Shown here: positions 26,935 to 31,042 of the stretch, one piece after another
Layout: each line of letters starts with the position of its first letter
Position numbering within the stretch: the stretch's first letter is position 1
Assembly (NCBI GenBank): GCA_016182905.1
Contig: JACPFR010000055.1
Location: forward strand, 1 to 38,442
DNA: 38,442 bases
From: Elusimicrobiota bacterium
GTDB taxonomy: Bacteria; Elusimicrobiota; Elusimicrobia; UBA1565; UBA9628
Direction: 5' to 3'
Position numbers and translations under genes: made by a program
Notes under the pieces: model-generated
Databases searched by the model: none
What the model was told of the DNA's origin: nothing
Seen by the model: the letters and a program-made list of their open reading frames with translations, nothing else

Positions 26935-28013
26935 CCTTCCCGCTTCCGCTGAACGACGTCGTCTTCGCTGTCGCGAAGATTCTTTTCTCGATACTCGGCG
27001 TGGGCCTGAGCATCGCGGGCTTCCTCGGCTGGGTCGAGCGCAAGCAGAGCGCGGTGATGCAGGACCGCATCGGCGCCAACCGGGCGTCGATCTTCGGCTT
27101 CACCGTTCTCGGCCTCTTCCACCCGATCGCCGACGCGATCAAGCTGCTCACGAAGGAGGACTTCGTGCCGAAGGGCGCGCGCAAGCCGCTGCACGGCCTG
27201 GCGCCGATCATCTCGCTGGGCTGCGGCATGTTCTGCCTCGCGGCCCTTCCCTACGGCGGCGTCGTGGACTACGCCGGGCGCGCCTGGGACCTGACGCCGA
27301 TCGCCCTGCCGATGGGCGTGCCGCTCGTGCTGGCCGCGCTCGCCTTCGGCGTGCACGGCATCGTGATGGCCGGCTACGCCTCGGGCTCCAATTACGGCCT
27401 GCTCGGCGCCATGCGCGGCGCGGCCCAGATGATCGCCTACGAGGTGTGCTTGGCCTCCGCGCTGGCCGGCCTTCTCTTCGTCTACGGCACGCTCGACTTC
27501 ACCGAGGCCGTCCGGTGGCAGGTCTCGCACGGGGTGTGGGGGATCTTCCTCCAGCCGCTCGCCTTCATCATCTTCCTCACCGCCGGCACCGCCGTGACCA
27601 AGCGCGTCCCCTTCGACCTCCCCGAGGGCGAGAGCGAGATCGTCGGCTACCACGTCGAGTACTCGGGCATGAAGTTCGGCATGTTCATGATGACCGACTT
27701 CTTCGAGTCCATCGTGATCTGCGGCGTCATCACCGCGCTGTTCCTCGGCGGCTGGTCCATCCCTTTCGTCGATTTCCCCTCGCTGGCGGGCCGCTCCGGG
27801 CTGTGGGGCCTGTGGCCGGTGGCGGCCGGCGCCCTGATGGTGGGCAGCTCCGTCGGCAAGATACTCCTGATGCTCTTCCTCCTCATGCAGGTGCGCTGGA
27901 CCTTGCCCCGCTTCCGCTTCGACCAGGTCCTCGACCTCGGCTGGAAGCATCTCCTGCCGCTGGCCCTGATCAACTTCCTCGTCACCGTGTGGGTGGTCTA
28001 CTTATGGCGATAA
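26931..28013 (+). CDS. nuoH: NADH-quinone oxidoreductase subunit H
   Basis: A 360-residue ND1-like subunit that links the two arms and forms part of the quinone chamber. Motifs are WVERKQSAVMQDRIGANRA, HPIADAIKLLTKEDFVPKGA and the acidic loop RVPFDLPEGESEIVGYHVEY followed by SGMKFGMFMMTDF. GTG start at 26931 overlaps the nuoG stop. An in-frame extension back to 26664 is a nuoG shadow. It overlaps nuoI by 10 nt. Confidence 0.96.
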   Translation: MTFPLPLNDVVFAVAKILFSILGVGLSIAGFLGWVERKQSAVMQDRIGANRASIFGFTVLGLFHPIADAIKLLTKEDFVPKGARKPLHGLAPIISLGCGMFCLAALPYGGVVDYAGRAWDLTPIALPMGVPLVLAALAFGVHGIVMAGYASGSNYGLLGAMRGAAQMIAYEVCLASALAGLLFVYGTLDFTEAVRWQVSHGVWGIFLQPLAFIIFLTAGTAVTKRVPFDLPEGESEIVGYHVEYSGMKFGMFMMTDFFESIVICGVITALFLGGWSIPFVDFPSLAGRSGLWGLWPVAAGALMVGSSVGKILLMLFLLMQVRWTLPRFRFDQVLDLGWKHLLPLALINFLVTVWVVYLWR

Positions 28014-28540
28014 CCGTCCGGACCGTCAAGCGCCCGGAGCGCACCTTCGCGACCGAGCTCTACCTCGTCGAGATCGTCAAAGGCCTCGGCCTGACCTTCC
28101 GGCACCTGTTCGTCAACCTGTACCGGCACTCCAAGCGCGCCCTGGGTCTCAAGGGCCTGCCCGGCTCGGTCACCGTCCAGTACCCGGACGACCCCGCCGT
28201 GCTCGGCAAGCGCGCTCGCACCCGCCACCGCCTGCTCAAGCGCGACGACGGCGCCCCGCGCTGCACGGCCTGTCTCCTGTGCGAGACGATCTGCCCGGCC
28301 AAGTGCATCCGCATCACGGCCGAGAACGCGCCCGACGTGACCGTCGAGAAGCGGGCCAAGACCTTCGACATCGACCTGGGCATGTGCATCTTCTGCGGCT
28401 ACTGCGTCGAGGCCTGCCCCGTGGACGCCATCCACATGGACGCCAACGAGGTGGAGCTCTCGTCCTACAACCGCAAGGACATGATCTGGAACATGCCCGA
28501 GCTCCTCGGCGACGTCCCCAAGACACCCTCCCGGCCGTGA
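28004..28540 (+). CDS. nuoI: NADH-quinone oxidoreductase subunit I
   Basis: A 178-residue TYKY-type ferredoxin subunit with two [4Fe-4S] motifs for clusters N6a and N6b: Cys87, 90, 93, 97 (CTACLLCETICP) and Cys128, 131, 134, 138 (CIFCGYCVEACP). ATG 28004 lies inside the end of nuoH. It is the last complex I gene in this permuted operon. Its TGA overlaps the GTG of a small Flp-like pilin gene. Confidence 0.96.
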   Translation: MAITVRTVKRPERTFATELYLVEIVKGLGLTFRHLFVNLYRHSKRALGLKGLPGSVTVQYPDDPAVLGKRARTRHRLLKRDDGAPRCTACLLCETICPAKCIRITAENAPDVTVEKRAKTFDIDLGMCIFCGYCVEACPVDAIHMDANEVELSSYNRKDMIWNMPELLGDVPKTPSRP

Positions 28541-28701
28541 GGGCCCGCGGCCAGGCCACCGTCGAGTACATGTTCCTCCTCTGCACGGTCCTGTGCCTGG
28601 CCCTCCTGACGGGGACCTTCCTCAACAAGTTCGGCCGCGACCTCCTGGATGACATCGCCCTGAAGGTCCTCGACGCCGCGATCACCCTCGCGATGCCGTA
28701 A
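28537..28701 (+). CDS. Small Flp/type IVb-like prepilin
   Basis: A 54-residue protein beginning (GTG)RARG|QATVEYMFLL. The Gly followed by Glu at +5 and Tyr at +6 fits the G|xxxxEY processing motif of Flp/TadE-type prepilins. One hydrophobic helix (to about residue 26) and a short amphipathic tail FLNKFGRDLLDDIALKVLDA follow. The start overlaps the nuoI stop in GTGA, so it is coupled to the nuo operon. No tad secretion genes are in the window. The prepilin peptidase at 1336-2127 or another could process it. Function is inferred only from the motif and size. Confidence 0.7.
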   Translation: MRARGQATVEYMFLLCTVLCLALLTGTFLNKFGRDLLDDIALKVLDAAITLAMP

Positions 28702-28759: not shown

Positions 28760-29080
28760 ATGAGCACGCGAGACATGACGTTGGGCGGGGTCTGGGGCCT
28801 CAACCTCCTGGCGATCTGCGCCTCCAACTTCAACGAGGTCAGGCATTGCCTGGCGGTCCTGGTCCTCTACTCCGCGACGTACTTCCTGTTCGCGCCGCTG
28901 CACGCGCTGATCCTGCTGTGCGTGTGGGCGGCCTACTCCCTCGAGAGGGGGGACTCCCCGCTGACCGAGGGCTGCGCGGCGCGGGCGGCCGTGCGCGTGG
29001 TCTGCGCGGAGACCGTCCTGTTCTGGGCGCTGTATTGGGGCATGGTGTTCGAGATCCTGCCGCTGCACATGCGGGTGTAG
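28760..29080 (+). CDS. Small membrane protein of unknown function
   Basis: A 106-residue protein with three hydrophobic segments (about residues 9-23, 30-60 and 78-100). There are no recognisable motifs. It may belong with the adjacent cyclase operon but has its own promoter-like box and is 46 bp away. The TACACT box and lack of overlap with other reading frames' genes support it as real. Confidence 0.65.
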   Translation: MSTRDMTLGGVWGLNLLAICASNFNEVRHCLAVLVLYSATYFLFAPLHALILLCVWAAYSLERGDSPLTEGCAARAAVRVVCAETVLFWALYWGMVFEILPLHMRV

Positions 29081-29126: not shown

Positions 29127-30008
29127 ATGCCTCCCGGCTTCAAGCCCATAGCCGTCGCCGACATCATGGACATGCTCCTCGTGGGCACGCTCGTGTACGG
29201 CATCATGCTGTGGTTCAAGCGCACGAAGGCCGCGTTCGTGGCCCTGGGGCTCCTGTTGCTGGTCGTCGTGTACACGGTGGCCTTCGTCTCGGGCATGTAC
29301 ATGACCGTGCGTATTTTCCAAGGGTTTTTCGCCGTCTTCATAGTCGCGGTGATCGTGATCTTCCAGGAGGAGATCCGCTCGATGTTCGAGCGCATCGCGA
29401 TCTGGAGCCTCACCGGCGGCGTGCTGCGGGCCGCGCCGACCCACCGCCAGGTCGAGATCCTGGTGAGCTCGCTGGGCGACCTCGCGCGCGAGAACATCGG
29501 CGCGCTCGTCGTCCTGCGCGGCCTCGACCCGCTCGACCGCCACATCGAGGGCGGCTGGGACCTGAACGGCGACCTGTCCGAGGCCCTTTTAAAGAGCATC
29601 TTCGACTCCCACTCGCTGGGCCACGACGGCGCGTTCATCGTCGAGGAGGGGCGGGTGACCCGGTTCGGCGCGCAGCTCCCGCTGTCCAAGGACTTCTCCA
29701 AGATAACGAACCTCGGCACGAGGCATTCCGCGGCCCTGGGGCTGTCGGAGCGCTGCGACGCGATGTGCCTCGTCGTCAGCGAGGAGACGGGCCGGATCTC
29801 GTTCGCGCTGCGCGGGGACCTCGTGGGGGTCAAGGACCTCGAGGAGCTTCAGGACGGCATCGAGATCTTCCTGACCAAGCACCTGCCCAAGACCCCGCAG
29901 AACTACGTCTACCACTTCGTGACCGAGAACATGCGCGAGAAGGTCATCGCGACCGTCGTCTCGGTCCTGCTCTGGGTGTTCTTCGTCGGCTTCGGAGCGG
30001 GACGATGA
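29127..30008 (+). CDS. cdaA: Diadenylate cyclase, CdaA type (c-di-AMP synthase)
   Basis: A 293-residue membrane protein that makes cyclic di-AMP from two ATP. Three N-terminal helices (about residues 15-80) are followed by FQEEIRSMFERI and the DAC domain with HDGAFIVEEGRVTRFGAQLPL (DGA at 167-169) and TNLGTRHSAALGLSE (GTRH at 197-200). These are the nucleotide-binding and catalytic motifs. Unusually, a fourth membrane segment at 272-289 (KVIATVVSVLLWVFFVGFG) follows the DAC domain. It resembles the first helix of YbbR/CdaR proteins, but no YbbR repeats are attached. ATGA overlap couples it to the DHH phosphoesterase gene. Confidence 0.93.
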   Translation: MPPGFKPIAVADIMDMLLVGTLVYGIMLWFKRTKAAFVALGLLLLVVVYTVAFVSGMYMTVRIFQGFFAVFIVAVIVIFQEEIRSMFERIAIWSLTGGVLRAAPTHRQVEILVSSLGDLARENIGALVVLRGLDPLDRHIEGGWDLNGDLSEALLKSIFDSHSLGHDGAFIVEEGRVTRFGAQLPLSKDFSKITNLGTRHSAALGLSERCDAMCLVVSEETGRISFALRGDLVGVKDLEELQDGIEIFLTKHLPKTPQNYVYHFVTENMREKVIATVVSVLLWVFFVGFGAGR

Positions 30009-31042
30009 AGCCCGGCTTCCACGCCCGGCGCCTGGTCAAGCTCCTGACCGGGAGGGGGAGGTCGCTGTCGCCGCTGACCATCCTGACGCACGACCACCCC
30101 GACCCTGACGCGCTGGCGAGCGCCTGGGCGCTGGCGCACCTCGCGCAGTCGCTGGGCAAGATCCGCACGCGCATCGTGTACGGCGGCATGATCGGCCGCG
30201 CCGAGAACCGGATGATGGCCGAGCGCCTGCTCCTGCCCGCGCGGCCGCTGCGCAAGGGCGAGCTCGCCGGCGTGCCGCACCTGGCGCTCGTGGACACCCA
30301 GCCTCCCTTCAAGAACAACCGCTGTCCCCCGCGGCGCATCCCCGACCTTATCCTCGACCACCACCCGCGCCACGCCGACACGCACTCCGACATGGCGCTG
30401 ATCGACGAGAGCGTGGGAGCGACGACGACCATCCTCGTCGAGGCGCTGAAGGCCGCCGGCCTGCGCGTCCCCGGGCGCCTGGCCACCGCGATCGTCTACG
30501 GCATCGGCTCGGAGACGCAGAACCTGGGCCGCGAGGCGACCGCGCGCGACATGGAGGCTTATCAGGCCCTGTGGCCCAAGGCGAACATGAAGACGCTGTG
30601 GCGCATCTCCTATCCGCAGCGCTCCGAGGCGTTCTTCATGACCTTGGCCCACGCGGTGCGCGAGGCCTTCGTGGTCGGCCGCGTCGTCGGCGCGAACCTC
30701 GGCGAGGTCAGCACGCCCGACCGCGTGGCGCAGATGGCCGACTTCCTCCTGACTCTCGAGAAGATGCAGTGGTCCATCGTGACGGCGCGCTATCAGGGCC
30801 GCCTGCACGTGTCCTTGAGGGCCAACGACCCGGGCGCCGGGGCCGGGCGCCTGCTCAAGCGCCTGCTCGGCGGGGGCAACCGCGGCGGCGGCCACGGCAT
30901 GATCGCCGGCGGCTCCCTCGAGCTCGGGGCGGACGCGCCGGAGCAGGACTGGCGCGCGGCGGAGGAGAAGGTCGTGACCGAGTTCCTGGCGTATCAGGGC
31001 CTCAACGCCGACGACCGGCGGCGTCCCTTCCGCGGCGCCTAG
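30005..31042 (+). CDS. DHH/DHHA1 phosphoesterase (NrnA-like, possible c-di-AMP or pApA hydrolase)
   Basis: A 345-residue soluble protein. Metal-binding motifs are THDHPDPDALAS (His29-Asp35), LVDTQP (Asp97) and LDHHPRH (Asp118-His120). The DHHA1 substrate motif is GGGNRGGGHGMIAGG (about 289-303). The motif normally reading D-T in the third region is GSETQNLGREA here, with Glu170 instead of Asp. Family members degrade nanoRNA, pApA or c-di-AMP. Co-translation with the c-di-AMP synthase strongly suggests a role in c-di-AMP turnover, but the activity is inferred. No transmembrane or PAS/GGDEF domains (so not GdpP). Confidence 0.88.
   Translation: MKPGFHARRLVKLLTGRGRSLSPLTILTHDHPDPDALASAWALAHLAQSLGKIRTRIVYGGMIGRAENRMMAERLLLPARPLRKGELAGVPHLALVDTQPPFKNNRCPPRRIPDLILDHHPRHADTHSDMALIDESVGATTTILVEALKAAGLRVPGRLATAIVYGIGSETQNLGREATARDMEAYQALWPKANMKTLWRISYPQRSEAFFMTLAHAVREAFVVGRVVGANLGEVSTPDRVAQMADFLLTLEKMQWSIVTARYQGRLHVSLRANDPGAGAGRLLKRLLGGGNRGGGHGMIAGGSLELGADAPEQDWRAAEEKVVTEFLAYQGLNADDRRRPFRGA

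Follow-up and report, generated by a model that had tools for sequence, protein, structure and literature searches.

A conserved, overlapping pair of genes for a CdaA-type diadenylate cyclase and a DHH/DHHA1 phosphoesterase in Elusimicrobiota: a probable c-di-AMP turnover unit

The window, i.e. the whole 38,442-nucleotide stretch of Elusimicrobiota DNA that was analysed, carries NuoF, NuoG and NuoI genes, followed by two small reading frames and then by a gene pair encoding a predicted diadenylate cyclase and a predicted phosphoesterase. The features are listed below, all on the plus strand (L, G and f numbers in the text are our handles for loci, genomes or genome samples, and families).

28004..28540, +, NuoI, the last nuo gene 5' of the pair (TIGR01971, 1.3e-33)
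29127..30008, +, cdaA, membrane diadenylate cyclase of 293 aa, apparently a truncated CdaA-YbbR (PF02457, PF19293, 9g69, DAC fold)
29148..29363, +, N-terminal membrane region, three helices, aa 8-79 (CdaA_N aa 8-83, hydropathy peaks)
29469..29819, +, DAC catalytic domain (PF02457 match, genome search)
29625..29633, +, DGA motif, aa 167-169 (invariant in cyclase alignments A1 and A5)
29721..29729, +, RHS replacing RHR, aa 199-201 (second Arg lost across the clade)
29931..29999, +, C-terminal membrane helix, aa 269-291, putative remnant of a YbbR-carrying tail (conserved residues, tail lengths)
30005..30008, +, ATGA overlap of cdaA and the DHH gene (sequence; NTGA in 35/47 order loci)
30005..31042, +, stand-alone DHH/DHHA1 phosphoesterase gene, 345 aa (PF01368, PF02272, structure model)
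30356..30364, +, DHH motif, aa 118-120 (DHH in 52/73, DQH in 21/73)
30512..30514, +, Glu170 codon of GSET (Glu in 52/73, Asp in 21/73)

The ATGA overlap at 30005-30008, claimed in an earlier, sequence-only reading of this DNA, is read directly from the sequence, and the coupled cyclase/phosphoesterase operon proposed there is kept in relatives. Among 56 genomes of the window's order (Elusimicrobiota MAGs), a DAC protein was found in 50 and the DHH protein in 49, with both in 49 and neither in 6; G210, which has the cyclase and gave no DHH match, is the sole cyclase-only genome. The two genes are adjacent in all 49 genomes that have both, with cdaA directly upstream in the 47 usable loci and, in two contig-edge copies, a truncated DHH gene at the contig end that still adjoins the cyclase. 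In 35 of the 47, the genes overlap by NTGA and the start codon is in frame with the DHH gene. The pairing is thus far beyond chance in the order, but outside it the DHH family often occurs unpaired. Across the whole phylum, 54 of 340 genomes have the DHH family as against 220 with DAC, and most DAC-bearing Elusimicrobiota outside the window's order are without it. Chance co-location was also considered for 59 other DAC loci (30 from the rest of the phylum, another 25, and 4 of the G348 sample) and was rejected, none having a DHH match within flanks of about 1.5 kb. A fixed ratio of c-di-AMP synthesis to breakdown, as had been suggested, is not implied by a shared transcript. No sigma-70-type promoter was found and the terminator-like matches are intragenic, both observations being uninformative in this organism. 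The small genes between nuoI and cdaA (28534-28701 and 28760-29080) occur in close relatives only, and one of them gives a weak match to a class III signal peptide.

The window cyclase matches DAC (PF02457, 6.3e-33) and CdaA_N (PF19293, 5.7e-07), both over cut-off, and hence combines the N-terminal membrane domain and DAC domain by which membership in CdaA is recognized; its closest solved chain is 9g69 (1.3e-26) and its DAC fold agrees with CdaA crystal structures. With 165.8 bits it falls below the 188.8 cut-off of the NCBIfam CdaA equivalog TIGR00159, which makes it a divergent CdaA-type enzyme and no strict equivalog. The active site has the DGA motif of CdaA, but RHS in place of RHR, and this exchange, missed in the sequence-only reading, is the real active-site oddity of the protein. 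In a 70-row DAC tree (the window, 32 further clade rows, 18 of the 30 canonical phylum loci and 19 others), the 33 rows of the paired clade form one side of a branch with an SH-aLRT of 99. The second Arg is missing in all 33, being replaced by Ser, Thr, Ala, Leu or Met, whereas RHR is kept in 37/37 other rows; likewise, it is lost in 26/26 clade loci of the G348 sample, with RHR in the 4/4 other loci. DGA, Arg199, His200, Ser218 and Glu220 are invariant in the cyclase clade alignment. According to PMC3328451, changing RHR to AAA ended ATP binding and activity of the Mycobacterium tuberculosis cyclase. Loss of the second Arg in the window's clade could therefore impair activity, which would count against the turnover reading set out below, although in that mutant all three residues had been changed together.

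The C-terminus of the window cyclase has a hydropathy (Kyte-Doolittle) of 2.43 over 19 residues from residue 273, the structure model places a helix at 269-288 (mean pLDDT only 74.5) and the chain stops five residues past residue 288 with no extracytoplasmic YbbR repeat, in agreement with the extra helix without YbbR repeats noted from the sequence. That this helix is of the CdaR/YbbR type is borne out by relatives which have a YbbR domain behind the same helix. In the 50-row cyclase alignment A5, from which L126 (cut off), L139 (of another kind) and the near-copies L083, L085 and L087 are omitted, the tail past residue 288 is 1-8 aa long in 33 rows, the window's family, and 96-125 aa long in 17, with Trp283 of the helix kept in 50/50 rows and Asn268 and Lys272 in 49/50. 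All eight genomes of the sister family f3 encode a longer CdaA of 382-399 aa, with about 100 residues after the same helix, and CdaA-YbbR/CdaR fusions also occur in some Omnitrophota, Verrucomicrobiota and Ignavibacteria. PF07949 was detected in 10/17 long tails at E values up to 1, the best match (4.1e-06, in the L117 copy) being over cut-off, and a long-tail profile finds Lmo2119 (5hqh, 1.7e-05), which we take to be the Listeria CdaR, and, weakly, three chains named YbbR (0.021 to 0.34). By these profile matches, the long tails of the fused relatives can be assigned as YbbR domains. A separate cdaR was not found with PF07949 in the window's genome; as the model detected only 2/8 fused f3 genomes and is insensitive, this absence is weak evidence. 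Of the two usual partners said to be missing, cdaR is thus not found, while the absence of glmM holds for the immediate neighbourhood only. Every row of the clade that does not belong to the window's family is fused, which makes fusion the likelier ancestral state, and the AU test does not reject a tree with all truncated rows in one clade (p-AU 0.603), so that one loss suffices. Fusion first and loss of YbbR later is the likelier order of events on this comparison, the helix of the window cyclase being, by its conserved residues, the apparent remnant of a CdaA-YbbR fusion tail. Literature searches on the fusion and its architecture found no published CdaA-YbbR fusion, although a prior description is still possible.

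The phosphoesterase matches DHH (PF01368, 1.1e-06) and DHHA1 (PF02272, 4.7e-07), both over cut-off, and its structure model (pLDDT 93.4) has the full fold, with Z values of 20-27 to DHH-DHHA1 structures; with the NrnA equivalog model NF053633 it scores 16.8 bits, under the cut-off of 350. The highest are those to TmPDE (27.4) and the GdpP catalytic domain (26.5), followed by nanoRNases, and the top Foldseek match is GdpP with pApA; since neighbouring Z values are nearly tied, the fold alone cannot decide between c-di-AMP and nanoRNA as the substrate. The protein has His29, Asp33, Asp35, Asp97, Asp118-His-His and GGH, and at motif IV it has Glu170 (GSET, as had been noted from the sequence) in place of Asp. 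The statement that Asp is usual at this position stands for the aligned solved relatives and fails within the protein's own subfamily, where Glu is found in 45/45 order members (alignment A2, 45 rows, omitting the broken copies L079 and L080). In the 73-row alignment A4, which omits the broken copies L116, L128 and L143, L104 and L156, which are short or masked, and the near-copies L083, L085 and L087, motifs III and IV covary fully, with DHH and Glu in 52 rows, DQH and Asp in 21 and no mixed row. Glu170 is therefore a lineage marker and not an atypical feature of this one protein. A role for Glu170 as the mark of an inactive enzyme was rejected, Glu being fixed in all 45 order members. The two covarying positions presumably bind the same metal, as in work on family II pyrophosphatases, and Glu for Asp at such a putative metal ligand would count against the turnover reading set out below. 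Three DHH genes are split into two or three frames beside an intact cyclase (L116 in G203, L128 in G226, and L143), owing to sequencing error or decay.

The window's genome (3.98 Mb, 97% complete) encodes one DAC protein, by genome search, and a single PF01368 protein, both in this pair; no other DHH protein was found in it, and PgpH-type PF07698 was found in 0/56 order genomes. An oligoribonuclease-type protein, Orn (NF003765, 4.1e-79), is present. Together, these observations point to a likely route from c-di-AMP to pApA by the DHH protein and from pApA to AMP by Orn. RecJ is also unseen by PF01368 in the window's genome, the same search matching 13/14 control genomes. The c-di-AMP riboswitch RF00379 was looked for in the window's genome and rejected (0/1).

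The reading that we consider probable is that the pair is a self-contained c-di-AMP turnover unit whose cyclase is a reduced CdaA-YbbR fusion. Membrane-bound CdaA would convert ATP to c-di-AMP, its soluble partner, the co-translated DHH/DHHA1 protein, would open this to pApA, and Orn, encoded elsewhere, would cut pApA to AMP. The cyclase would derive from a CdaA-YbbR fusion carrying its CdaR regulator in the same chain; the window's family may have lost the YbbR ectodomain and kept the membrane helix only, probably as a fourth anchor or to touch the N-terminal helices. The genes, their coupling and conservation, the fused relatives, the changed motifs and the lack of any further DHH or PgpH protein in the model searches are direct observations, whereas the two enzyme activities, what the DHH protein acts on, the direction from fusion to loss and the role of the helix are what we infer.

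It is also conceivable, though unlikely, that the DHH partner hydrolyses pApA and nanoRNA in the manner of NrnA/Pde2 and serves product clearance only, with another enzyme opening c-di-AMP. NrnA, Rv2837c, DhhP and Pde2 are all near the window protein in fold and the DHH family occurs also away from cyclases, but the searches gave no further DHH protein and no PgpH that might open c-di-AMP, and the Orn family covers dinucleotides, so that a genome with Orn can dispense with the DHH protein for nanoRNA. Still less probable is a pyrophosphatase-like or other phosphoesterase function with a merely genomic link to the cyclase, which we regard as very improbable. In sequence-only searches, family II pyrophosphatases score level with GdpP; a pyrophosphatase heads the profile search and the top NCBIfam match is the Mn pyrophosphatase model, at 39.8 bits, far from its cut-off of 283. 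The protein has DHHA1 with its GGH motif, however, and full-length structural matches are to GdpP, TmPDE and NrnA, whereas the close alignment to pyrophosphatases ends at around residue 177.

A further alternative starts from the cyclase: the clade with RH(S/T/A) might make another product or act as a nucleotide-binding regulator, with a DHH partner tuned to it. The uniform loss of the second Arg in clade rows and G348 clade loci, set against its retention in all other rows, would fit such a change, as would the second DAC protein in several genomes. The invariance of DGA, the first Arg, His and Ser218/Glu220, and the fact that the clade cyclase is the sole DAC protein of the window's genome, make it a rather improbable explanation next to the turnover unit.

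Beyond the phylum, the fused cyclase precedes the DHH gene in some Omnitrophota and one Planctomycetales-labelled MAG (L119, L125, L127, L130), and the order is reversed, DHH then CdaA-YbbR, in Verrucomicrobiota, Ignavibacteria and one Omnitrophota MAG (L132-L134, L136, L143, L158). Of the 43 DHH loci L119-L161, 26 have no cyclase within the fetched flanks, which counts against the turnover-unit reading; of 38 genomes with the DHH family, 36 have a DAC protein, and the two without one, MAGs that are perhaps incomplete, likewise count against it. Of 285 genomes sampled around G348, 26 carry the cyclase clade (at least 308 bits, other matches among those listed reaching about 219), and a DHH protein lies in the 1.5 kb flanks of 10 of these 26 loci. 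Six of these belong to the window's DHH family (L203-L206, L209, L222) and four to another, only distantly similar family beside longer-tailed CdaA (L215:2897-3850, L219:2-880, L221:3-956, L228:1334-2257), suggesting repeated recruitment of phosphoesterases by clade cyclases. In a Planctomycetota MAG, a DAC domain with RHR stands at the head of a frame coding for some 1297 aa (L139:3-3893, minus strand) that diverges from a DHH gene.

The arrangement resembles in part systems that are already known. The CdaA-CdaR(-GlmM) operon and complex, described for Firmicutes in PMC8573169, shares with the window a CdaA-type membrane cyclase and a CdaR-type helix, with a YbbR domain in the window's relatives; it differs in that the regulator domain is fused in these relatives and lost in the window, no glmM lies next door, the partner gene is a phosphoesterase and the motif is RHS. 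The DHH protein shares the whole DHH-DHHA1 fold and the conserved motif residues given above with the GdpP catalytic domain, TmPDE, Rv2837c, DhhP and Pde2/NrnA, from which it differs by Glu170 for Asp, an identity of about 20% and translational coupling to a cyclase; unlike GdpP, it is without membrane and PAS parts. The c-di-AMP locus of Porphyromonas gingivalis also has cyclase and phosphodiesterase genes close together, but, according to PMC9259658, the phosphodiesterase is of the PgpH/HD type, no DHH-DHHA1 enzyme is reported as found, and cdaR is separate and distant; this locus was therefore rejected as a precedent for the DHH pair. Searches of the literature for c-di-AMP with Elusimicrobia and with Omnitrophota found no study of the present locus. 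Overall, the domains themselves are known; their arrangement is conserved and in part reduced, and two changes in the active sites are specific to the lineage.

The gene neighbourhood, surveyed with Pfam for chosen genes only, varies between families. A Mg2+-transport or glycogen gene lies within 1.5 kb of the cyclase in 12/17 fused loci, 0/35 loci of the window's family and 4/59 other DAC loci. In five f3 loci, a CNNM-CBS-TrkA_C gene is next and then an alpha-glucan phosphorylase, other fused loci have MgtE, GlgB, GH57, GH77, maltokinase or isoamylase as neighbours, and single G348 clade loci adjoin MscS channels or a gene of the GT20 trehalose-phosphate synthase type. The idea that a carbohydrate/Mg neighbourhood is unique to the clade was rejected, the matches at the four other DAC loci all being to the phosphorylase query. 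In family f21, a phosphorylase-like gene adjoins a canonical cdaA (L007, L010, L014, L015), and the glycogen link may therefore predate the fused clade. In L113, L117, L118, L121 and L124 (f3), the fused cdaA is preceded by an aconitase gene that is read in the other direction. In the window's family, NuoI is 5' of the pair on the same strand in 31/35 loci, at a distance of 50 bases or less in 15 (several overlapping), 51-700 bases in 9 and further in 7.

In Synechocystis, TrkA, KtrA and MgtE are named as putative c-di-AMP receptors, and c-di-AMP is described as influencing glycogen synthesis via SbtB and GlgB, in PMC10117731. In the window's family, a connection of c-di-AMP with complex I, drawn from gene position, is plausible, because the pair lies behind nuo genes and because, as stated in PMC5836111, Staphylococcus aureus dacA is dispensable anaerobically and its suppressors map to respiration genes. 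It may tentatively be suggested, as a possibility that we hold to be less than even, that CdaA-YbbR with RHx and a two-state DHH protein form a multi-phylum cassette, placed mostly by genes for Mg2+ transport (CNNM-CBS-TrkA_C, MgtE) and glycogen or trehalose metabolism, which in the window's family would have moved to the end of the operon for complex I, shed the sensor domain and come to couple c-di-AMP to respiration.

The mode of CdaA regulation by CdaR was called unclear in PMC8573169 (2021), and the fused, longer-tailed and truncated cyclases would offer a natural series for testing CdaR control in one chain. The linked changes DHH+Glu and DQH+Asp and the lost second Arg offer clean mutational tests of both enzymes, and, judging from the neighbouring genes, the outputs of c-di-AMP in these phyla may include Mg2+ transport, glycogen and respiration.
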